This document shows, in pieces, positions 16,913 to 26,912 of a DNA stretch of 38,487 nt. The translations under genes and the position numbers were made by a program. The DNA comes from Hyphomicrobiales bacterium (GTDB taxonomy: Bacteria > Pseudomonadota > Alphaproteobacteria > Rhizobiales > Beijerinckiaceae). Location: the NCBI GenBank assembly GCA_019237205.1, contig JAFAHO010000276.1:1-38487 (forward strand), written 5' to 3'. How positions within the stretch are numbered: position 1 is the first letter of the stretch; each line of letters starts with the position of its first letter. The notes under the pieces were generated by a model. That model saw only the letters and a program-made list of their open reading frames with translations. It searched no databases and had not been told where the DNA came from.

Positions 16913-17359
16913 ATGACCGCTAGCGCTAAGACAGAAGCCAAGTTGAAAACCTTTGACGCCTTCGCTCCGCTCGCCGACGCGTTGGAGGCGATCCCGAATC
17001 TGGACGTTCCGGACGTCGCCCGCGATTTCGCGAAGCGCATGACCGGCCTCGGCGAGAGGTTCGCGACGGACGGCCGCGACGCAGTTGAAAAGGCGACTGC
17101 GACCATCGAGAACACCGCCGTGTCTTCGGTCCGGGAGCTCGGCCGCGTCAGCCGAGCCGTTCAGACAGCGCTCTATCAGGACGCTGCGGCGCTGCTCGCC
17201 GGACTTCGCCACCTCTCCACGGCCGCGTCTCCGACGGACGCCCTTCAAATTCAGTCGGACTACCTTCGCAGCCGAGCCAACGCGACCGCGGAACGCGTAA
17301 AGGCGGTCGCGGACTATGTCGGCCGAGCCGCGTCGAAACTGGAAGGATCCGCCAGCTAA
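16913..17359 (+). CDS. Phasin family protein (PHA granule coat)
   Basis: A 148-residue, almost wholly helical, alanine-rich protein. Typical phasin features include LKTFDAFAPLADALEAIPNL at the N-terminus, the amphipathic core ENTAVSSVRELGRVSRAVQ and the LQIQSDYLRSRANAT segment resembling the F.LQ.DY motif of Phasin_2 proteins. Phasins coat poly-hydroxyalkanoate granules and set their size and number. It is monocistronic, preceded by a candidate PhaR operator and followed 12 bp after the stop by a hairpin, which fits a gene switched by polymer accumulation. It is unlike the second phasin at 26469, so the two may sit on different granules or at different stages. Confidence 0.82.
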   Translation: MTASAKTEAKLKTFDAFAPLADALEAIPNLDVPDVARDFAKRMTGLGERFATDGRDAVEKATATIENTAVSSVRELGRVSRAVQTALYQDAAALLAGLRHLSTAASPTDALQIQSDYLRSRANATAERVKAVADYVGRAASKLEGSAS

Positions 17360-17396: not shown

Positions 17397-17524
17397 CTGA
17401 CCCAACTCAGGTGCTCGCATCCTCGGAAGGCTCGCTTCGGCGGGCCTTCATTCGCTGTTGTCAGCCGCAGGTTTCTGGCATTTGTCGCCGGGGCGGCCGT
17501 CCCTCGCAGAGGAAGCAGATCCAT

Positions 17525-18814
17525 ATGAACGCCAATCGCAGCCCGGCGCTGCTGGGCAGATCGAACGACAGCCAGCGCGCCGCCGAACTGAGACGGATCA
17601 AGTTTGCCGCCACGGCGGTCCTTGGCGGGTGTCTGATCCTCATCGTCATCGCGCGCGCCCTCGAGCGGCGCCACCCGGCATTCGGCTTCCTCGCGGCATT
17701 TGCGGAGGCCGGCGCCATTGGAGGGTTGGCCGACTGGTACGCGGTCGAGGCGTTGTTCCGGCGGCCGCTGGGGCTCCCTATTCCGCATACAGCGATCATT
17801 CCCAACAACCAGCAGCGCATCGCCGAGAAGCTCGGCGAGTTCATCGAGGAGCAGTTTCTCGACGCCGCGCCGGTCGAAGCCAAGCTCAACCAGACTGATT
17901 TCGCCTCGTTCTTCAGCGAATGGCTCGACGACCGCAAGCGCAGCGGCGACCTCGCGCGGTTCATGCTGAGACTCATGCCTGAGGCGATCGCGGCGGCCGA
18001 GTCCTCCGGGCTGAAGAGCTTTGTCGCCCGCCGCGCGCAAGCGCAGCTCCAGTCGATCGACTTCACTCCGCTTGCGGCGGGCGCGCTAAGGACATTCGTC
18101 AGCGACGGCGGGCATCAGCGGTTGCTCGATGACGTGATGGCGGCCGTACACGAGGCGTTGAACAAACCCGAGACCATGGCGGCGATACGCGAGAAGATCC
18201 GCGCCGAACTGCCGACGCTGCTCAAATTCTATCGCGCGGACGCCTATCTGATGAAGAAGGTGGCAGCGTCCGCCGCCTCGTTTTTCGAGGACGTTCGGAC
18301 CAATCCGGCGCACCCGCTCCGCGGCGAGATCGATCGGCTGGCCCTTTCGCTGATAGAACGGCTGGAAACGGAACCGGCTCTCGCGACGCAACTCGCAGCG
18401 ATCGAACGGAATTTGCTGTCGCGCCCCGAAGTCGGCGATCTCGCCGAGAGGCTTTGGTCCAACGTCAAGATCTTCATCGAGCGAAGCGCGACGGCAGAGA
18501 CCTCGACGCTTCAACGCCGCCTCGCTGAGCTCCTGCGGGAGGTTGGCGCCCAACTCGAGGGCGATCCCGAAATGCGGGCCGAGATCAATCGAGGTTGCGT
18601 GACAGCGGCGAGCAAGCTCATCGCCGAACACAAGAGCGAGGTATCGACCTTCATCGCCGATCAGGTGAAAGGGTGGGACATGGGCCAACTGATCAACGTG
18701 ATCGAGCTCAACGTCGGGAAGGACCTTCAGTACATCCGCTTCAACGGCGCGCTGATCGGCGGTCTCGCGGGCCTCCTGCTTCATGCCGGCGAAATGCTGC
18801 TGCGCGTGACCTAG
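17525..18814 (+). CDS. DUF445 family membrane protein
   Basis: A 429-residue protein of the DUF445 (YjiN-like) family, function unknown. It has a membrane helix near residues 23-43 (FAATAVLGGCLILIVIARAL), then the family hallmark GAIGGLADWYAVEALFRRPLGLPIPHT (read as two parts: GAIGGLADWYAVEALF and RRPLGLPIPHT), a long helical central region, and a C-terminal hydrophobic segment GALIGGLAGLLLHAGEM. The ATG at 17525 follows GAGGAAG; longer in-frame openings are unsupported. Its stop overlaps the convergent AraC-type gene by 4 bp. No link to the PHA genes beyond position is visible. Confidence 0.82.
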   Translation: MNANRSPALLGRSNDSQRAAELRRIKFAATAVLGGCLILIVIARALERRHPAFGFLAAFAEAGAIGGLADWYAVEALFRRPLGLPIPHTAIIPNNQQRIAEKLGEFIEEQFLDAAPVEAKLNQTDFASFFSEWLDDRKRSGDLARFMLRLMPEAIAAAESSGLKSFVARRAQAQLQSIDFTPLAAGALRTFVSDGGHQRLLDDVMAAVHEALNKPETMAAIREKIRAELPTLLKFYRADAYLMKKVAASAASFFEDVRTNPAHPLRGEIDRLALSLIERLETEPALATQLAAIERNLLSRPEVGDLAERLWSNVKIFIERSATAETSTLQRRLAELLREVGAQLEGDPEMRAEINRGCVTAASKLIAEHKSEVSTFIADQVKGWDMGQLINVIELNVGKDLQYIRFNGALIGGLAGLLLHAGEMLLRVT

Positions 18815-19920
18815 AGGGTGGACCGGCGTCCTGCATGCGCAGCACCCGGCGGTGGCGAGGCAGCGGTCGGCCGCCAAAGGTAGGGGCGCATGCGAGACTT
18901 GAACGCGCTGGGCGAACTGCCTGTCCAGCGGCGAAAGGCGTGGCGGAAGTTCGCTGCGTCGCTGAAGCCCAGCGCCGCCGCGATGTCCTCGTTGGTCATC
19001 ACGGTCTCCCGGAGATACTTCACCGCAACTTGCGCGCGGAGCTCATCGACCAATGCGCGGAACGAAGTGCCTTGGAGCGCGAGTTGCCGGCGGAGCGTCC
19101 GCGCAGTGGTTCCCAGCTGTTTCGCGGCGCCCGCCAGCGTCGGACGCCTGGCGATGTCCTCGAGCAAGCTCGCCCGGATCTTGCCCGCCGCGCCAGCGCG
19201 CAACGCCAGGTCCGCTAGCAGTTCGTCGCACAGAGACAAAACGACCGCGTAGGTCGTTCTGTTGCCGAGCATCGCGGTCTCATCCAACCATTTCGCGTCG
19301 AAGATGAACTGGTTTGCCGCCTGCGCGAACCGTCCCCTGCATCCGGTCAACGCCTCGGTTTGCTTGGCCTCGTCAGACTGGGAGTAGGTCACGCTAGTTT
19401 CCCGCGGCGCGAACGACACCCCCATCACGTCGCGATGCAACGACAGATGCACGCCCATCTGCATCTCGACGATGAACCGGTATAGCGGCTCGTCGACGAG
19501 GCGGTGGAAGATCGGTTCGATCGTCCAAATCGCGTCCCCATCGCGCTCGGTGAAGGAAAGAGCGACCAACGGCGCGGCCAGAACGTGGTACCTGACACAA
19601 AAACTCATCGTCTTGCGGAAATCGGCGCCGCACAGAATCGCGTAGCCGTACATGCCGTAAGCGGAGACGTGAATCGAGAGGCCAATGCGAAGCGCAAGGG
19701 ATGGATCGCGCGACAGCCGAAGGGCGTTCCGACATGCTATCAGGAGCTGGCGAAGGGAAACCAGAGTCTCGGGCGAGTGCAATTCGTCCGGGGTGACACC
19801 AACATCGCTGAGGGCCTCGCGGACCGGAACGCCCTCCGCAACCAGTGTCTCGACGATTGCGGCGAGTTTGGTCGGCGGGTAGACCCTGTCCGAAAAACCT
19901 GGCTTTCCTGTGAGCGTCAC
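18811..19920 (-). CDS. AraC-family regulator with arabinose-binding-like domain
   Basis: A 369-residue transcription factor. The N-terminal half (about 20-220) matches the Arabinose_bd-type sensor domain found in OruR/VirS-like regulators, including LRIGLSIHVSAYGMYGYAI. The C-terminal half has two helix-turn-helix units: LAGAAKQLGTTARTLRRQL and DIAAALGFSDAANFRHAFRRW, followed by GSSPSAF, the AraC signature. The start is GTG at 19920, preceded by GGGAGG. It diverges from the acyl-CoA dehydrogenase gene with 189 bp between, the usual place for a regulator of the neighbouring operon. M. tuberculosis VirS, of the same architecture, controls the divergent mymA operon that contains an acyl-CoA ligase; by analogy the ligand here may be a fatty acid or acyl-CoA. 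Confidence 0.85.
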   Translation of the reverse strand: MTLTGKPGFSDRVYPPTKLAAIVETLVAEGVPVREALSDVGVTPDELHSPETLVSLRQLLIACRNALRLSRDPSLALRIGLSIHVSAYGMYGYAILCGADFRKTMSFCVRYHVLAAPLVALSFTERDGDAIWTIEPIFHRLVDEPLYRFIVEMQMGVHLSLHRDVMGVSFAPRETSVTYSQSDEAKQTEALTGCRGRFAQAANQFIFDAKWLDETAMLGNRTTYAVVLSLCDELLADLALRAGAAGKIRASLLEDIARRPTLAGAAKQLGTTARTLRRQLALQGTSFRALVDELRAQVAVKYLRETVMTNEDIAAALGFSDAANFRHAFRRWTGSSPSAFKSRMRPYLWRPTAASPPPGAAHAGRRSTL

Positions 19921-20050
19921 GGCGATCCTCCCAACGACAGCTGGCGGCGCTCGTCTACTGCTGCGTCAGCTCGACCCCGCCTTCGGCCGTTTCGAACCTT
20001 TCGGCCATCGCATAGTATGACACAATCTGGCTGACTGATTGGGCCTCCGC

Positions 20051-20109: not shown

Positions 20110-21324
20110 ATGACAATGCAAGGCTCTTCAAAGCGCAAAGCCGAATATGTCGTACCGCCGATCGACGGCGACTTCTACCGGATCGCCGATCTGCTCGACG
20201 CAAAGGAACGCGCGGTCGCGCAACGGGTGAGGGAGTTCATGGAGGCCGAGGTCGCGCCGATCATCGAGGACTATTGGGCGCGCGACAAGTTCCCCTTCGA
20301 AATCATTCCGAAAATCGCCGGTGTGGGCATCGGCGGAATTGGCTACGAAGGATACGGCGCGGCAGGCGGCAGCATGCTCTTGAACGGTTTCGTCGCCATG
20401 GAGCTTGCGCGCGTCGACTCGTCGACCGCGACCTTCTGGGGCGTTCACACCGGACTCTCCGCGGGCTCGATCTATCTCTGCGGCGACGAGGAGCAGAAGC
20501 AGCGCTGGCTGCCGGCGATGATGCGGTTCGAAAAGATCGGCTCGTTCGGCCTGACGGAGCCGCTGGTCGGCTCCGCGACTTCGGGCGGGATGATGACGAC
20601 CTGCCGGCGCGAAGGCGACGCCTGGCTACTGAATGGCGAGAAGAAATGGATCGGCAATGCGACCTTCGCCGACATCAACGTGATTTGGGCGCGCGACGAG
20701 GCCTCGGGGAAGGTCAAAGGCTTTGTGGTCGGCAAGGAAAACCCGGGCTTCTCGGTCAAGAAGATCGAGAGCAAGATGGCGCTCCGCGTGGTCCAGAACG
20801 GTTGGATCACGCTGAAGGATTGCCGCGTTCCGGAGGCCGATCGGTTGCAGAGGGCCGACAGCTTCAAAGACACCGCTAAGGTTCTCAGGATGACGCGCGC
20901 CGGCGTTGCCTGGTTCGCGGTCGGCTGCGGCCGGGGCGCCTATGAGCATGCGTTGCGCTACGCGACCGAGCGCTCCCAGTTCGCCAGGCCGATCGGTGGC
21001 TTCCAGCTCGTTCAGGACCTTTTGGTGCGCATGCTCGGCAACGTGACCGCGACGGAGTGTATGGTCCTGCGGCTCGGACAGTTGCAGAGCCAGGGACTGA
21101 TGACCGACGAGCACGCTTCGCTGGCGAAAGCCTTCTGCACCGTCAAATGCCGCGAGACCGTCGGCTACGCGCGCGAACTGCTCGGCGGCAACGGCATCCT
21201 CCTCGACAATCATGTCGGCCGCTTCGTCGCCGACGCCGAGGCGATCTATTCCTACGAGGGCACGCGCGAAATGAACACGCTGATCGTCGGCAAAGCGATC
21301 ACCGGGCTCAGCGCCTTTGTCTAG
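20110..21324 (+). CDS. Acyl-CoA dehydrogenase, glutaryl-CoA dehydrogenase-like
   Basis: A 404-residue FAD enzyme that introduces the 2,3 double bond in acyl-CoA. Seen: the FAD/substrate segment SFGLTEPLVGSATSGGM, WIGNATFADI in the middle domain, the AVGCGRGAYEHALRYATERS helix, QFARPIGGFQLVQ, and the terminal catalytic base E383 in YSYEGTREMN. The overall pattern is nearest glutaryl-CoA dehydrogenase and plant peroxisomal ACX4-type short-chain enzymes; chain length preference cannot be read. GGGAGGACGACCC precedes the ATG. It is the first gene right of the divergent regulator and, with the synthetase and hydratase, would supply enoyl-CoA for (R)-hydration and polymer synthesis. A 335-bp gap to the next gene leaves open whether they share a transcript. 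Confidence 0.88.
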   Translation: MTMQGSSKRKAEYVVPPIDGDFYRIADLLDAKERAVAQRVREFMEAEVAPIIEDYWARDKFPFEIIPKIAGVGIGGIGYEGYGAAGGSMLLNGFVAMELARVDSSTATFWGVHTGLSAGSIYLCGDEEQKQRWLPAMMRFEKIGSFGLTEPLVGSATSGGMMTTCRREGDAWLLNGEKKWIGNATFADINVIWARDEASGKVKGFVVGKENPGFSVKKIESKMALRVVQNGWITLKDCRVPEADRLQRADSFKDTAKVLRMTRAGVAWFAVGCGRGAYEHALRYATERSQFARPIGGFQLVQDLLVRMLGNVTATECMVLRLGQLQSQGLMTDEHASLAKAFCTVKCRETVGYARELLGGNGILLDNHVGRFVADAEAIYSYEGTREMNTLIVGKAITGLSAFV

Positions 21325-21659
21325 ATGACGGCTTCGCCACTGCGGCAAGCCGCCGAAAAATCTCGTTTGCGTCCGAGGCGCTCGGTTGGAAGGCGTTTGG
21401 CCCGCTCGGACCCGCTCGCTGGCCGTTTCGCACCTTCACAAGGAGCTGACGGCGCTGGAAGGTGCCAGCGTTCTCGCAGGTTCGCCTGGCGACTTCTGCT
21501 CCGCCGTCACCCGACTTGGCCAGACGAAGCGTCGAGGGAGGTCCGGCTGGGCTCGCAAAAGTCGACGCCAAGGGATAAGGTGAGGCAAAAAGGCTTGGGT
21601 CCTGGTGAAGAGCGCAGGCGGCGGCGTCGCTGAGCGCGGAGGAAGCGAGGAGGCGGACC
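21325..21659. other. Gene-free gap before acyl-CoA synthetase gene
   Basis: A 335-bp stretch on the same-strand path from the dehydrogenase to the synthetase gene. The short ORFs in it are not coding by composition. I see no clear promoter hexamers, terminator or operator copies of the GCACTGCA type. A strong purine-rich ribosome site (GGAGGAAGCGAGGAGG) at its right end belongs to the next gene. Confidence 0.4.
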
Positions 21660-23312
21660 GTGACGGGAAGGCTCATACAGGCCGCCAGTTCGGCGTATCA
21701 ATTTCCGCTGCTATTCAAGCACATCTGGAACACCCCGCTGTTGCAGGCGCGGGACCAGGAAGTGGTCTATCGAGACGCGAAGCGGTTCACTTACGCCGAG
21801 ATCTGGGAGCGCATCAACCGGCTGGCGTCGGCGCTGGCCGGGATCGGCGTCCACCCAGGAGACACTGTCGGAGTTCTCGACTGGGATAGCAACCGGTTTC
21901 TCGAGGCCTTCTTCGCGATTCCGATGATGGGCGCGGTCATGCAGACGGTCAACGTCCGACTCGCCCCCGAGCAGATCCTCTACACGCTCGATCACGCCGG
22001 CTCGACGACGCTTCTTGTCAACGACGAATTCGCCGGACTGGTGAAGGAGCTCAAGCCGCAACTGCCGAACGTCAAGCGGCTCGTCGTGATGTCGGACCGG
22101 TCTTCCCCCGAGACGGGCGGCTTATCGTTCGTCGGCGAATATGAGTCGCTCCTTGCGACCGCCTCGCCGCACTATGACTTTCCCGACTTCGACGAGAACA
22201 CCCAGGCGACGACGTTTTACACGACCGGAACCACCGGTCTCCCGAAGGGCGTGTACTACAGCCATCGGCAACTCGTTTTGCATGCGCTCGCCGAGCTGGC
22301 GTTCCTCGGCATTGCCGGGAATCAAGGACGTTTCTCGCGCGACGACGTCTATATGCCGATCACCCCCATGTTCCATGTCCATGCCTGGGGCTTTCCCTGG
22401 GCGGCGACGCTAGCCGGGGTCAAACAGGTCTATCCTGGCCGCTATGACCCTACGATGCTCGTCAGGCTGATCAAGACCGAGCGCGTCACCTTCACCCACT
22501 GCGTGCCGACGATCCTTCAGATGATGCTCGGCGCGGCCGCCGCGGCCAAGACCGACCTCGCAGGATTGAAGATGGTCATCGGCGGGTCAGCGCTGCCCAA
22601 GACGCTCGCTAAGCAAGCGCTCGCCGCGGGGATCGACGTCTATGCAGGCTATGGCATGTCGGAGACCGGGCCCCTGATCTGCGTCGCGCAGGTGCGAACC
22701 AAGGATCTCGAGGGGGATCCGGAGCAGGCAGTCGACATTCGCGCCAGGGCCGGCGTGACGGCGCCGCTGGTCGACTTGCGCATCGTCGATTCGGACATGA
22801 AGGACCTGCCGCATGACGGCAAGGCGTCGGGCGAGATCGTGCTGCGCGCGCCTTGGCTGACCCAGGGCTATTTCAACGATCCCAACGGCTCGGACCAGCT
22901 CTGGGCTGGGGGCTATCTCCATACCAGCGACGTCGCCGCGATGTCGCCGGAGGGTTATGTCCAGATCACCGACCGCATCAAGGATGTGGTCAAGACCGGC
23001 GGGGAATGGGTGTCGTCGCTGCAGATCGAAGACCTGATCATGCATTGCGCAGGCGTGGCTGAAGCCGCGGTCATCGGCGTCAAGGACGAAAAATGGGGCG
23101 AGCGGCCGATGGCGCTGGTGGTCAGGGAGGCGTCGAGCGCTGAAGCGGTCAGCGAAGCTGCAATCAAGGCTCATCTGAAAGTCTTCGCCGACGGCGGCGT
23201 GATCTCGAAATATGGAATCCCGGAAAAAATCCTGTTCATCGACAGCCTCCCGAGAACGAGCGTCGGAAAAATCGACAAGAAGGAGCTCCGCAAAAAATAC
23301 GGCGACATGTAG
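21660..23312 (+). CDS. Medium/long-chain fatty acyl-CoA synthetase (AlkK-like)
   Basis: A 550-residue adenylate-forming enzyme converting fatty acid, ATP and CoA to acyl-CoA. The AMP-binding P-loop TTFYTTGTTGLPKG lies at about residues 182-195; MFHVHAWGFPW, the adenine motif AGYGMSETGP, the TSDVA aspartate, the hinge DRIKDVVKTGGEWVSS, and the C-terminal lysine in PRTSVGKIDKKELR are all intact. The layout resembles AlkK and FadD13-type medium/long-chain ligases; AlkK homologues feed mcl-PHA synthesis in Pseudomonas. It starts with GTG at 21660 after a strong GGAGG. It lies 60 bp before the hydratase gene. Exact chain length is not visible. Confidence 0.88.
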   Translation: MTGRLIQAASSAYQFPLLFKHIWNTPLLQARDQEVVYRDAKRFTYAEIWERINRLASALAGIGVHPGDTVGVLDWDSNRFLEAFFAIPMMGAVMQTVNVRLAPEQILYTLDHAGSTTLLVNDEFAGLVKELKPQLPNVKRLVVMSDRSSPETGGLSFVGEYESLLATASPHYDFPDFDENTQATTFYTTGTTGLPKGVYYSHRQLVLHALAELAFLGIAGNQGRFSRDDVYMPITPMFHVHAWGFPWAATLAGVKQVYPGRYDPTMLVRLIKTERVTFTHCVPTILQMMLGAAAAAKTDLAGLKMVIGGSALPKTLAKQALAAGIDVYAGYGMSETGPLICVAQVRTKDLEGDPEQAVDIRARAGVTAPLVDLRIVDSDMKDLPHDGKASGEIVLRAPWLTQGYFNDPNGSDQLWAGGYLHTSDVAAMSPEGYVQITDRIKDVVKTGGEWVSSLQIEDLIMHCAGVAEAAVIGVKDEKWGERPMALVVREASSAEAVSEAAIKAHLKVFADGGVISKYGIPEKILFIDSLPRTSVGKIDKKELRKKYGDM

Positions 23313-23372
23313 CTCAGCAACGGCGAGACAGTCTAATTTGATTTCACGCGTTTTGCGAAAACGGAGGCTTGA

Positions 23373-23849
23373 GTGAGCGAATTCACGATCTCACAGCTCG
23401 GCGAGCGCGTCGGCCAGGAGCTCGGGGTGTCGGATTGGGTCACGATCGACCAGTCTCGGATCGATAAGTTCGCAGCCTGCACCGGCGACCATCAGTGGAT
23501 CCACGTCGATGTCGAGCGGGCGAAGCGCGAGAGCCCCTATGGCGGCGCAGTCGCTCACGGCTATCTGACGCTGGCGATGGTCGCGCCTCTGGCCATGCAG
23601 ATCGGCGTCCTCCCCAAGGACGCGGCCGCCGGCCTCAACTACGGCGTCGACAAGGCGCGCTTCCTCGCTCCGGTGCCTGCCGGCGCGAGGGTGCGTCTGC
23701 GCGTCGTTCTCACCGGCGTCGAGCCGAAGGATGGGGGACAGGCGATCATGAAGACCAGGAACACGCTCGAAGTCGAAGGATCGGACAAGCCCGCCTTGGT
23801 CGCCGAGACCCTGGCGTTCCTCATTCCCGCGAGGGGCGCGCCGCGATGA
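23373..23849 (+). CDS. MaoC-family hydratase, probable (R)-enoyl-CoA hydratase
   Basis: A 158-residue single hot-dog domain protein of the MaoC/NodN type. The catalytic pair D39 and H44 sits in CTGDHQWIHVD, and PYGGAVAHGYLTLAM forms the conserved central helix region. Family enzymes add water to trans-2-enoyl-CoA to give (R)-3-hydroxyacyl-CoA, the monomer of PHA synthases (the PhaJ reaction). NodN-like members have uncertain substrates, so the role is inferred from context: its stop overlaps the PHA synthase start (ATGA at 23846), strongly implying coupled production of monomer-forming enzyme and polymerase. The start is GTG with GGAGG 8 bp upstream. Confidence 0.82.
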   Translation: MSEFTISQLGERVGQELGVSDWVTIDQSRIDKFAACTGDHQWIHVDVERAKRESPYGGAVAHGYLTLAMVAPLAMQIGVLPKDAAAGLNYGVDKARFLAPVPAGARVRLRVVLTGVEPKDGGQAIMKTRNTLEVEGSDKPALVAETLAFLIPARGAPR

Positions 23850-25549
23850 CCAACGACAGCCGTTCCGAACCCCAAAAGACGGACAGCATGTCCGAGCAGG
23901 CCTCGCGCCACACCTTGGCGCTCAATCCGCTGGTCGGCCTTCGCGGCAAGGACCTCATCGACAGCGCCGGGATTTTCTTCAAGGCGATGGTCAACGAGCC
24001 GCGCGTCGCCGCCGACAAATGGCTCTCGTTCGTCGGCGAATTGACCGAGATCGTGAGCGGCAGGTCCGATCGCACGCCGCAACCAGGCGACAAGAGATTC
24101 GCCGACCCCACCTGGAAGACGAGCCCATTGCACGGCGGACTGCTCAAAGCCTATCTCGCGTGGGGCGAGGCGTTGGACGAATTCGTCAGCGAGACGAGTC
24201 TCAGCGACGTCGACAAGGAACGGGCGCATCTGTTCACGACGATCCTCGTCGACGCGCTGGCGCCGACGAACAGCCTCATCGCCAATCCCGCCGCGACGCG
24301 CAAGTTTATCGATTCGGGCGGCCAAAGCCTGGTGAACGGGCTGAAGAACTACATTGAGGACCTCGTCAACAATGGCGGCCTCCCGTCGCAAGTCGACATG
24401 GCTGCTTTCAAGGTCGGCGAGACCCTGGCGAATACGCCCGGCGCGGTGGTGTTCCGCAACGAGCTGATCGAGCTCATTCAATATGCTCCGACGACGCCCA
24501 AGGTGTGGAAGCGGCCATTGGTGATGACGCCGCCGCAAATCAACAAATTCTATGCAATGGATCTGTCGCCCGAGAAGAGCATCGTCAGGTTTCTGCTCGA
24601 GAGCGGCGTGCAGACGTTCTGCGTGAGCTGGCGCAACCCGACGGTCGCGAATCGCGACTGGGGGCTCGACACCTATGTCGCCGCGCTCGACGAGGCCGTC
24701 GACGCGGTCCGGGAGATCACCGCCAGCGACGACGTTTCGGTGATGGGGTCGTGTTCCGGAGGCATCACCTCCGCCGCCTATTTGGCCACTCTCGGCGGCG
24801 CGAAAATCAAGAACCTCGTTCTCGCCGTTTGCCTCTTGGACACTGGCACGGCCTCGGACAGCGCCTTCGGGTCCCTGATCACGCCCGAGACGATGATCGC
24901 CGCCAAGGAGGCTTCGCGGCTTCGCGGCGTGCTGGATGGGCAGGATCTGGCGCGAATGTTCGCCTGGATGCGGCCGAACGATCTGATCTGGAACTACTGG
25001 GTCAACAACTACCTGCTCGGCAATGCGCCCCCGGCCTTCGATATCCTCTACTGGAACGCGGACACGACACGGCTGCCGGCGCGCTTGCACGGCGACTACA
25101 TCGATCTCTATTTCACCAACCCCTTCGTCAATCCCGGCAAATTGACGCTGGACGGCCGGACTGTCGATATGGGCCGGGTCAAGGGCAAGGTCGAAGCTTA
25201 CGTTGTGGCCGGCCTCACCGACCACATCACGCCATGGAAGGCGGTGTTCAACACCGCGCGCATTCTGGGGGACGAGGCGACATTCGTCCTTTCGAGCAGC
25301 GGACACTTGCAGAGTCTTCTCAATCCGCCGACCAACAAGAAGGCGTCCTATATGATCGGCCGGGCGGGTCCGACTGGCCCCGAAGCATTCCTTTCGAGCG
25401 CGGAGAAGCGGCAGGGCAGCTGGTGGCTCGACTGGCGCGATTGGTTACGCCAGCGATCCGGCGAAGAGGTCGATGCGCCGAAATCGCTCGGCGACGAGCG
25501 CCACCCCATTTTGATGCCTGCCCCCGGGAGCTACGTCTTTGAGCGATAG
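23846..25549 (+). CDS. phaC: PHA synthase, Pseudomonas class II-like
   Basis: A 567-residue alpha/beta-hydrolase-fold polymerase joining (R)-3-hydroxyacyl-CoA into polyhydroxyalkanoate. The catalytic triad is visible: C303 in the lipase-like box GSCSGG, D459 in AGLTDHITPW and H487 in SSGHLQSLLNPP, each offset by a constant 7 from the C296/D452/H480 I recall for P. aeruginosa PhaC1. Long segments (FAWMRPNDLIWNYWVNNYLL, PPAFDILYWNADTTRLPA, TPGAVVFRNELIELIQY, and the PAPGSYVFER tail) follow the class II, medium-chain-length type rather than class I. Class II enzymes usually use C6-C14 monomers. The start ATG lies inside the hydratase stop; the phaZ start lies inside this gene's end. The (R)-hydratase, acyl-CoA synthetase and phasin neighbours fit polymer made from fatty acids. 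Confidence 0.9.
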   Translation: MTNDSRSEPQKTDSMSEQASRHTLALNPLVGLRGKDLIDSAGIFFKAMVNEPRVAADKWLSFVGELTEIVSGRSDRTPQPGDKRFADPTWKTSPLHGGLLKAYLAWGEALDEFVSETSLSDVDKERAHLFTTILVDALAPTNSLIANPAATRKFIDSGGQSLVNGLKNYIEDLVNNGGLPSQVDMAAFKVGETLANTPGAVVFRNELIELIQYAPTTPKVWKRPLVMTPPQINKFYAMDLSPEKSIVRFLLESGVQTFCVSWRNPTVANRDWGLDTYVAALDEAVDAVREITASDDVSVMGSCSGGITSAAYLATLGGAKIKNLVLAVCLLDTGTASDSAFGSLITPETMIAAKEASRLRGVLDGQDLARMFAWMRPNDLIWNYWVNNYLLGNAPPAFDILYWNADTTRLPARLHGDYIDLYFTNPFVNPGKLTLDGRTVDMGRVKGKVEAYVVAGLTDHITPWKAVFNTARILGDEATFVLSSSGHLQSLLNPPTNKKASYMIGRAGPTGPEAFLSSAEKRQGSWWLDWRDWLRQRSGEEVDAPKSLGDERHPILMPAPGSYVFER

Positions 25550-26390
25550 GGCCGGCCTTGCGCCAGACGACACCGCAGAGAGACCGGGGAGCATCGAAGC
25601 GCGGATGATGTCGGTCGGCGGTCAGGAGCTGATGGTCGCAGTGAAACGCGGCGGCGATTCGCGTCCGCCGCTCCTGCTGTTCAACGGCATCGGCGCAAAT
25701 TGGCAGCTGGCGAGGCCCTTTCTCGAAGCCTTGACCGAAACGACGGCGATCATCTTCGACGTGCCGGGGATCGGCGGCTCTCCGTCGCCGAAGCGGCCGT
25801 ATCGTCCGTCCAGCATCGCCCAACTCGGCGCGCGCCTCGTCTCCGACCTCGGCTATGATAAGGTCGATGTCGCCGGCGTTTCGTGGGGCGGCGGCATCGC
25901 ACAGCAATTCGCCTATCAATATCCCCAACTCTGCAGGCGGCTGGTGCTCGCCGCGACATCGCCGGGAGCGATCAGCATTCCGGGCAGTCCTAAGGCGATC
26001 CTTCGCATGGCGACGCCCCGCCGGTATCTGGACAAAAACTACATGCGCAAGATCGCGCCCGACCTCTATGGCGGGGCGTTCAGGAAGGACCCATCGATGA
26101 TCGGGCGCCACACCGAGGCAATGTCCGGCGCTCTCGGCATCGGCTATGTCTATCAGCTGCTCGCCATGGCCGGCTGGACCAGCCTCCCATGGTTGAGTGC
26201 GGTGCGGCAACCGACGCTTATTCTTATGGGACGCGACGACCCTTTGGTGCCGGTCGCCAACGGCCGCATTCTGGCGCGCCTCATTCCCAACGCCCGCCTC
26301 GAGGTGATCGAGGACGGACATCTCTTCATCGTGGCCCGGCCTGTAGAGACAGCGCGCCGCATCGAGCGATTTCTTGGAGGCGAGCCGTAA
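25539..26390 (+). CDS. phaZ: Intracellular mcl-PHA depolymerase-type hydrolase
   Basis: A 283-residue alpha/beta hydrolase resembling Pseudomonas PhaZ, which releases 3-hydroxyacids from stored mcl-PHA. The triad is S115 in GVSWGGG, D234 in GRDDPLVP and H261 in EDGHLFIV, each 13 residues beyond the S102/D221/H248 I recall for P. putida PhaZ. The LFNGIGANWQLARPF segment near residue 47-61 carries the oxyanion region. The TTG start at 25539, preceded by GGGAG, overlaps the phaC end by 11 bp, so synthesis and breakdown enzymes are co-translated as in Pseudomonas phaC1-phaZ order. An uncommon start codon may lower its level relative to PhaC. Confidence 0.87.
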   Translation: MSDRAGLAPDDTAERPGSIEARMMSVGGQELMVAVKRGGDSRPPLLLFNGIGANWQLARPFLEALTETTAIIFDVPGIGGSPSPKRPYRPSSIAQLGARLVSDLGYDKVDVAGVSWGGGIAQQFAYQYPQLCRRLVLAATSPGAISIPGSPKAILRMATPRRYLDKNYMRKIAPDLYGGAFRKDPSMIGRHTEAMSGALGIGYVYQLLAMAGWTSLPWLSAVRQPTLILMGRDDPLVPVANGRILARLIPNARLEVIEDGHLFIVARPVETARRIERFLGGEP

Positions 26391-26468
26391 AGGGATGATT
26401 GGAACGGCGCGTCGAGACGCCGATAGTCAGGGCGAAAGCCGGGGGTGAACTCAAGACTGGAGGAAGCG

Positions 26469-26912
26469 ATGACCAAAGAGACTCAGCCGTACATCGACAT
26501 GCTGCGAAACTTCGGAAACAGCTTCGGCCTGCCGCAGGTCGACGTGGAGAAACTGCTCGAGACGAATCGCAAGAACCTGGAGGCTCTCACCGAATCGGCG
26601 AAAGTGGCCGCCGGGGGCGCGCAATCTGTGGCGGAGAAGCAACGCGAGGTGCTCCAGGCGGCGCTGCGCGAAGCAACCGCCCTGGCCCGCGAGTATCACC
26701 CAATGGGCAGCGCGCAGGAGATCCTCGCCAAGCAAACCGAGTTCGTGAAGAAAGTCTTCGACATTGCCGTCCAGGGCGCCCGGGAGCAGGCCGAACTGTC
26801 GAGGCAATCGACCAGCGAAGCGGTGAAAATCATTCAGGAGCGGATGAAGGCAAGCCTGGAGGAGGTGCGTGGCAGCGTCAGCCGCCAAAGCGCGCAGCCG
26901 CCGAAGAGCTGA
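26469..26912 (+). CDS. Phasin family protein, second type
   Basis: A 147-residue helical protein of the Phasin_2/TIGR01841 type. The N-terminal segment DMLRNFGNSFGLPQVDVEKLLETNRKNLEAL is characteristic (DMLRNFGNSF; LPQVDVEKLLETNRKN), followed by heptad-rich helices with AKQTEFVKKVFDIAVQGAREQ. The ATG at 26469 follows ACTGGAGGAAGCG; an upstream ATG at 26445 lacks this. It lies 78 bp after phaZ in the same direction, taking the place PhaI/PhaF occupy in Pseudomonas clusters, but without the histone-like PhaF tail. It presumably coats the granules made by the adjacent synthase. Confidence 0.86.
   Translation: MTKETQPYIDMLRNFGNSFGLPQVDVEKLLETNRKNLEALTESAKVAAGGAQSVAEKQREVLQAALREATALAREYHPMGSAQEILAKQTEFVKKVFDIAVQGAREQAELSRQSTSEAVKIIQERMKASLEEVRGSVSRQSAQPPKS

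Follow-up and report, generated by a model that had tools for sequence, protein, structure and literature searches.

A conserved gene cassette around a class II-lineage polyhydroxyalkanoate synthase in alphaproteobacteria, with a predicted route from fatty acids to polyester

A polyhydroxyalkanoate (PHA) gene cassette lies in a stretch of 38,487 nucleotides (contig JAFAHO010000276.1 of GenBank assembly GCA_019237205.1, positions 1 to 38,487; called the window below) from a Hyphomicrobiales bacterium of the Beijerinckiaceae. It is a set of seven genes, coding for an AraC-type regulator, an acyl-CoA dehydrogenase-like flavoenzyme, an AlkK-type acyl-CoA ligase, a MaoC-type hydratase, a PHA synthase of class II lineage, a PhaZ depolymerase and a phasin. 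We propose, with a probability of about 0.65, that these genes form a fatty-acid-to-polymer set that would yield a polyester of mixed short and medium chain length and recover its monomers.

Six of the seven genes are located on the plus strand. The acyl-CoA dehydrogenase/oxidase-like flavoenzyme (20110..21324), placed by profile and solved-relative matches in the family of glutaryl-CoA dehydrogenase (GCDH) and ACX4, is followed by the AMP-binding, AlkK-like medium/long-chain acyl-CoA ligase (21660..23312; NF004837, 634.5 bits, cut-off 476), the Rv0130-like MaoC-type enoyl-CoA hydratase, likely (R)-specific (23373..23849), and the synthase (23846..25549), assigned from its catalytic triad, family models and tree. 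PhaZ-type intracellular PHA depolymerase (25539..26390) scores above the curated cut-off of its family (TIGR02240, 296.2 bits, cut-off 250.6), and the phasin (26469..26912) closes the row (TIGR01841, 56 bits, cut-off 30.2). The phaC start and the MaoC stop share 4 bases, and phaZ begins either at a TTG overlapping the end of phaC or at an ATG at 25605. The phasin open reading frame (ORF) opens at a GTG at 26445, the ATG at 26469 being the likelier start. By ORF list and profile searches all six are intact, in agreement with an initial annotation of the window, which had named the same families on one strand. The interval drawn there, 20110..26912, does hold all six and omits the AraC-type regulator (18811..19920, minus strand; Arabinose_bd and HTH_18 domain matches), which is divergent from the cassette, as well as two further genes, for a second phasin-like protein and a DUF445 protein.

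The synthase contains PhaC_N and alpha/beta hydrolase parts and a Cys-Asp-His triad (C303, D459, H487). These residues align with the corresponding triad of Pseudomonas PhaC1, as had been claimed; their offset, counted from C296, is not constant (+7, +8, +8). The best family is the NCBI class II model TIGR01839 with 682.8 bits, which misses the curated cut-off of 855.4, and the class I model gives 467.5 bits. Relatives were compared at 80 loci, selected as the best from the 501 that named genomes yielded; one protein search scored 7999 candidates and listed 120. Two trees were built from 143 extracted synthases: a quick one of 67 rows with class III as outgroup, and a careful one of 50 rows, from which the long-branch rows L039, L043, L044, L046, L142 and L026 of the quick tree were left out. 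In the 50-row tree, 13 class I rows and 37 class II rows form separate groups with support of 100/100, and the window is on the class II side. A class I origin, with the window synthase and its 84% identical paralogue grouped with class I, was rejected in the same tree (approximately unbiased (AU) test, p 0.0004), so the class II-type assignment of the initial annotation stands. Support in the 67-row tree was 81 for a class II group of 45 rows and 79 for class I, with three long-branch plasmid rows unresolved.

Within class II, a subclade of 31 rows (91/86) includes the window and excludes canonical Pseudomonas PhaC1 and PhaC2. A 17-row alphaproteobacterial clade surrounds the window synthase (98/97 in the 50-row tree); the subclade also comprises two more alphaproteobacterial rows, beta-proteobacterial enzymes and a solitary Pseudomonas type. 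Because canonical PhaC1 and PhaC2 fall outside this subclade and the NCBI class II cut-off is missed, we assign the enzyme by its sequence to the class II lineage, and not to canonical class II. Gene layout differs as well. The canonical phaC1-phaZ-phaC2 cluster of Pseudomonas shares synthase lineage and PhaZ family with the window, but has two synthases around phaZ, whereas the window has one, outside the canonical group, and adds precursor genes; an arrangement of two phaC genes split by phaZ was not found in this single-phaC cluster. A second phaC is present in 12/27 Pseudomonas/gamma loci. The solitary Pseudomonas synthases (L093, L096, L098, L101, L109) have neither phaZ nor a second phaC near in four of the five cases, L109 having phaZ and maoC. 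Class II-type synthases were detected in 12/385 genomes of an even draw of alphaproteobacteria (E <= 1e-125, the window's own included). In alphaproteobacteria such synthases are thus in the minority, though they do occur.

The gene set is best conserved in Bradyrhizobium. Among 22 loci of this genus, PhaZ and MaoC accompany the synthase in 22/22, the ligase, the dehydrogenase and the AraC-type regulator in 20/22 each, and the phasin in 18/22; all six partners occur together in 15/22. Part of the misses go back to a contig end (L054: ligase, AraC) or a split ligase reading (L059). The regulator is an orthologue with 53-56% identity. The usual Bradyrhizobium order is AraC (minus strand), ligase, MaoC, PhaC, PhaZ, phasin, dehydrogenase, so that the dehydrogenase gene, first in the window, comes last. 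In B. diazoefficiens, which has five PhaC, blr2885 (phaC4) and blr2887 (phaP5) bear neighbouring gene numbers and may belong to an orthologous cassette. A metagenome-assembled genome (MAG) of the same genus as the host (palsa_929, G003; its contig is locus L065) carries the same seven genes in another order. The survey thereby bears out that the nearest named relatives of the synthase keep the adjoining acyl-CoA genes. At the 26 other alphaproteobacterial loci, ligase, MaoC and PhaZ are found together in 13, though the ligase there is often only remotely related (about 27% identity); one of these loci, L065, has an orthologous dehydrogenase.

Plasmid-borne versions were found in Bradyrhizobium sp. 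CB82, Paraburkholderia, Pukyongiella and the actinobacterium Tsukamurella. On the plasmid of Tsukamurella tyrosinosolvens (L044), ligase, PhaC, MaoC and PhaZ genes form a single run. In Bradyrhizobium sp. CB82 (L040) the cassette is on the 900 kb plasmid pCB82_1, predicted to be conjugative, near genes for benzoylformate decarboxylase, aldehyde dehydrogenase and extradiol dioxygenase, a setting that points to transfer and possibly to aromatic compounds as substrates of this version. Hydratase, synthase and PhaZ, frequently joined by a ligase, form a widespread core that also occurs on plasmids, and the dehydrogenase and AraC genes are the marks of the Bradyrhizobium-type version.

A conserved DNA element accompanies the regulator. 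Between their AraC and ligase genes, Bradyrhizobium loci have in common an element with direct repeats spaced by 22 bases, and a matrix was built from 20 unique of 21 Bradyrhizobium-type sites, the window being left out of training. Its blind match in the window is at 21394..21445 (plus strand), with a score of 42.3; the next best place scores -0.6, the top score in 40 simulated windows was 3.0 and the reversed matrix gave at best -8.6. This operator-like element sits between the dehydrogenase and ligase genes, 215 bases ahead of the ligase start. Locus L048, also outside the training set, scores 68.2. The palsa MAG locus reaches at best 1.8, in the right gap, and the matrix scan did not find the element in loci L066, L071, L088, L089 and L091. 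A second site ahead of the dehydrogenase was considered as well: the match at 19958..20009 (plus strand), in the AraC-dehydrogenase gap, scores -8.4, third best of 76,872 positions, which is within the range of noise matches in other loci, and is suggestive only. Its position and repeat spacing make the element at 21394..21445 a putative binding site of the AraC protein, which would respond to a fatty acid or an acyl-CoA.

The partner enzymes permit a tentative order of reactions. The closest solved relative of the ligase by sequence is 8hsy, an acyl-acyl carrier protein (acyl-ACP) synthetase (598 bits), and that of the flavoenzyme is Arabidopsis ACX4 (374 bits), which acts on short straight-chain acyl-CoA. 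Bacterial GCDH chains (2eba, 3sf6, 3swo) carry an Arg, which we take to bind the second carboxylate of the substrate; the flavoenzyme has Ala in its place, and ACX4 likewise lacks the Arg. With this residue missing, the flavoenzyme was ruled out as a glutaryl-CoA dehydrogenase, and because it is nearest to ACX4 and without the Arg, its step is likely a single oxidation of a monocarboxylic acyl-CoA, with oxygen or ETF as possible acceptors. The hydratase is nearest to Rv0130 (2c2i, 130 bits), with which it shares an identical TGDHQWIHVD stretch; this agrees with what we take to be the hydratase 2 motif with catalytic Asp and His, so the enzyme is likely (R)-specific. In the proposed route, the ligase would activate fatty acids to acyl-CoA, the flavoenzyme would oxidise them once, presumably as unbranched monocarboxylic acyl-CoA, and the hydratase would give (R)-3-hydroxyacyl-CoA, to be polymerised by the synthase on phasin-coated granules. 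PhaZ would free 3-hydroxy acids again, which the ligase may re-activate, and the whole would be switched by the AraC protein at its putative operator. Each monomer would have the same chain length as the fatty acid from which it came, to the extent that the cassette works faster than host beta-oxidation.

Gene clusters of a similar kind have been described. In Cupriavidus pinatubonensis JMP134, a co-transcribed fadE-phaJ-phaC2-phaP-phaZ cluster was published in 2015, with phaC2 transcripts on octanoate about 240 times those of phaC1 (PMC4636328). JMP134 PhaC2 is not a row in either tree and was compared from its published description. Like the window, this cluster has one class II-lineage phaC with fadE, phaJ/maoC, phaP and phaZ on one strand; unlike it, the five genes as described include neither ligase nor AraC gene and stand in another order. 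In group C of Burkholderia sensu lato, a class II-like phaC was reported in 2021 with phaZ, phaP and maoC as the neighbours named (PMC8231600). The Paraburkholderia plasmid locus L041, whose synthase is about 50% identical to that of the window, resembles the window further in a ligase gene ahead of maoC. As the JMP134 and Burkholderia clusters precede it, the window cassette is a variant of a described kind and not the undescribed storage module that the initial annotation had thought possible. New here are the ligase and AraC genes as regular members, the conserved element, and a synthase with Gln481 and Leu484 combined with Cys325. A genome survey credits almost all proteobacterial class II synthases to Pseudomonas (PMC8312272), and no description of a class II PhaC in alphaproteobacteria or Bradyrhizobium was found in the open-licence literature. 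Further PHA literature drawn on comprises PMC3815930, PMC10992027, PMC6545009, PMC10888616, PMC9676036 and PMC10006253.

The chain length of the product was approached through residues of the synthase. At the sites concerned, alignment gives D136, C329, S485, Q489 and L492 in the window enzyme. Q489 and L492 correspond to positions 481 and 484 and are both as in Pseudomonas PhaC1; C329 and D136 stand where PhaC1 has S325 and E130. Cysteine at 325 is constant among the examined rows of the alphaproteobacterial clade of the window, and occurs also in Variovorax, Ideonella and the solitary Pseudomonas type. Position 484 is Ile in Paraburkholderia, Caballeronia and Cupriavidus synthases (L041, L042, L047), and in the solitary Pseudomonas type it is Val (L093, L098, L101) or Ile (L109). 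Cysteine specifically at 325 presumably widens the substrate range. According to published work, E130, S325, S477 and Q481 are the sites altered to widen the range of class II enzymes, S325 and E130 being among those changed in laboratory-evolved synthases that accept small monomers, for instance lactate, together with 3-hydroxybutyrate (3HB). Since Gln481 and Leu484 are kept and Cys stands at 325 (with Asp at 130), a mixed short/medium-chain polymer, from C4 to about C10, is predicted from the sequence with moderate confidence. A Tyr/His substrate-tunnel marker (PMC6403647) was dropped as mislocated, the chosen column giving His in class I rows too.

The other genes of the host bear on this proposal. 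Its assembly (5.46 Mb in 459 contigs, 91% complete, estimated contamination 3.6%) has four PhaC_N genes, that of the window and three others. One of these (contig C33) groups with class I in both trees; another (C80), with a very long branch, joins class I only in the quick tree, with support of 86. The remaining one belongs to a contig of 3463 bases (G000:C207, locus L035) with a MaoC fragment, PhaC, PhaZ and phasin, 93, 84, 76 and 74% identical to those of the window; this copy is either a second cassette or contamination from a sister species.

Several observations weigh against the proposed reading. Genes with 3HCDH_N and Thiolase_N domains are present elsewhere in the host, both on contig C313 among others. 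Given these beta-oxidation genes and the three other PhaC_N genes, the description of the cassette as self-contained was too strong; it would compete with full oxidation, not stand alone. Of ten other genomes of the genus, just one (G003) gave a match to the window synthase above 60% identity. With 683 bits the synthase falls short of the class II cut-off (855), and at the class I/class II split the tree program flagged a meeting of long branches. By sequence, the solved proteins nearest to the ligase and the flavoenzyme are an acyl-ACP synthetase and an oxidase, respectively. Deletion of all three PhaJ-type hydratases of Pseudomonas putida is reported to have lowered PHA, not abolished it, and a hydratase gene is therefore no proof of the route. 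In favour of the route, a C12 homopolymer of more than 99% has been reported from yeast engineered to have a class II synthase and, of the multifunctional enzyme, the hydratase domain alone. The residue argument is weakened on two counts: Asp at 130 is shared by canonical Pseudomonas PhaC2 and almost every other class II row, and yeast with an E130D/S325T/S477R/Q481M mutant reportedly formed more polymer with monomers that were not shorter. Finally, PhaC2 of JMP134 used 3-hydroxybutyryl-CoA and not 3-hydroxyoctanoyl-CoA, and its host made only polyhydroxybutyrate (PHB) from octanoate (PMC4636328). Class II lineage is thus no safe sign of medium-chain polymer, which the initial annotation had taken it to be, and such a product cannot be assumed for the window synthase.

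The JMP134 result leads to the strongest of the alternatives, doubtful in our view, in which the window cassette makes PHB only, its acyl-CoA genes feeding C4 units or tying PHB to growth on fatty acids. The characterised fadE-phaJ-phaC2-phaP-phaZ analogue is a direct precedent, and Cys at 325 and Asp at 130 occupy sites that were changed in the evolved synthases taking small monomers. The window enzyme, however, keeps Leu484 and Gln481 of canonical PhaC1, whereas Ile is at 484 in JMP134 PhaC2 according to the published text, as in L041, L042 and L047; with Leu (L492) here, the PHB-only outcome may or may not carry over. It is unlikely that the ligase chiefly re-activates 3-hydroxy acids released by PhaZ, which would make the set mainly a turnover cycle and not a path for fatty acids from outside. 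In P. putida, an acyl-CoA synthetase is required for PHA turnover, and the ligase gene is near phaZ and phaC in 20/22 Bradyrhizobium loci; an acyl-CoA synthetase has also been listed among the proteins on PHB granules in B. diazoefficiens. Yet a pure recycling loop would have no role for the dehydrogenase and hydratase genes, which are about as conserved as the ligase gene. A cassette for phenylalkanoic or branched acids in place of ordinary fatty acids, suggested by the genes beside the CB82 cassette and by the name 'PHA_depoly_arom' of model TIGR02240, is quite improbable, as aromatic neighbours were seen in the one Bradyrhizobium locus whose flanks were annotated for them and the nearest solved relative of the flavoenzyme is ACX4, with its short straight-chain substrates.

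Two more genes upstream of the regulator probably or possibly belong to the cluster in part of the group. A second phasin-like gene (Phasin_2; 16913..17359, plus strand) matches PF09361 with 29.7 bits (cut-off 24.9) and TIGR01985 with 61.7 bits, under its cut-off of 99.7, and is likely an accessory of the cluster. Next to it is a DUF445 membrane-protein gene (17525..18814 from its ATG, plus strand; PF04286, 348 bits), of which a longer ORF reading opens at 17411; it is the one PF04286 match that the profile search gave in the host assembly. In 17/26 non-Bradyrhizobium alphaproteobacterial loci DUF445 is found no more than 10 kb from class II phaC, each time beside a phasin, against 0/20 class I loci (Fisher p 1.9e-6, a locus-level comparison of interrelated loci). 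The pairing with a phasin2-like gene recurs within the same distance in other alphaproteobacteria. DUF445 stands near class II phaC, phaZ or phasin in Mesorhizobium, Sulfitobacter, Phreatobacter, Paraburkholderia and Pukyongiella, and directly follows phaZ in the latter two and in an alphaproteobacterial relative (G012). Locus L197 (G073:C1) has in a row a PhaC-type gene (class III model, under cut-off), a phasin-like gene and DUF445.

The case for DUF445 as a general partner of PHA genes is weakened by other loci: it occurs within 10 kb of phaC in 0/22 Bradyrhizobium, 0/27 Pseudomonas/gamma and 0/5 beta loci, and near phaC in 0/11 further class II alphaproteobacterial loci. It is held by 4/12 class II genomes of the 385-genome draw, beside the cassette in the window's own only, and among 36 DUF445 loci from a class sample a phasin is near in 4 and none in 32. 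The fold predicted from 24 of 26 aligned rows (predicted local distance difference test score, pLDDT, 80; predicted template modelling score, pTM, 0.44) had no PDB match at E <= 0.001, and no relevant link between DUF445 and PHA was found in the open-licence literature. A possible role as granule or membrane accessory is a lead. On the other side of the cassette, a dodecin gene (PF07311; 26994-27206, plus strand) starts 81 bases past the phasin gene.

Returning to the fatty-acid-to-polymer reading, its widest form is a tentative one: an AraC-controlled one-pass module, common in Bradyrhizobium and also present in other alphaproteobacteria, might store fatty acids, without change of chain length, as mixed short/medium polyester, by means of a natural synthase of a Cys325 clade, 325 being one of the four sites of PhaC1 altered in the laboratory, with the DUF445 membrane protein as a new kind of granule accessory in some of its carriers. 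Should the one-pass route prove correct, the cassette would be a natural set ready for use in making polyesters with side chains of chosen length. For annotators, the comparison is a warning that 'class II' outside Pseudomonas is a poor predictor of chain length. A conserved, regulated cassette of class II lineage in nodule bacteria would imply that studies of PHA in Bradyrhizobium, where those consulted centre on PHB, may have missed a polymer fed by fatty acids.

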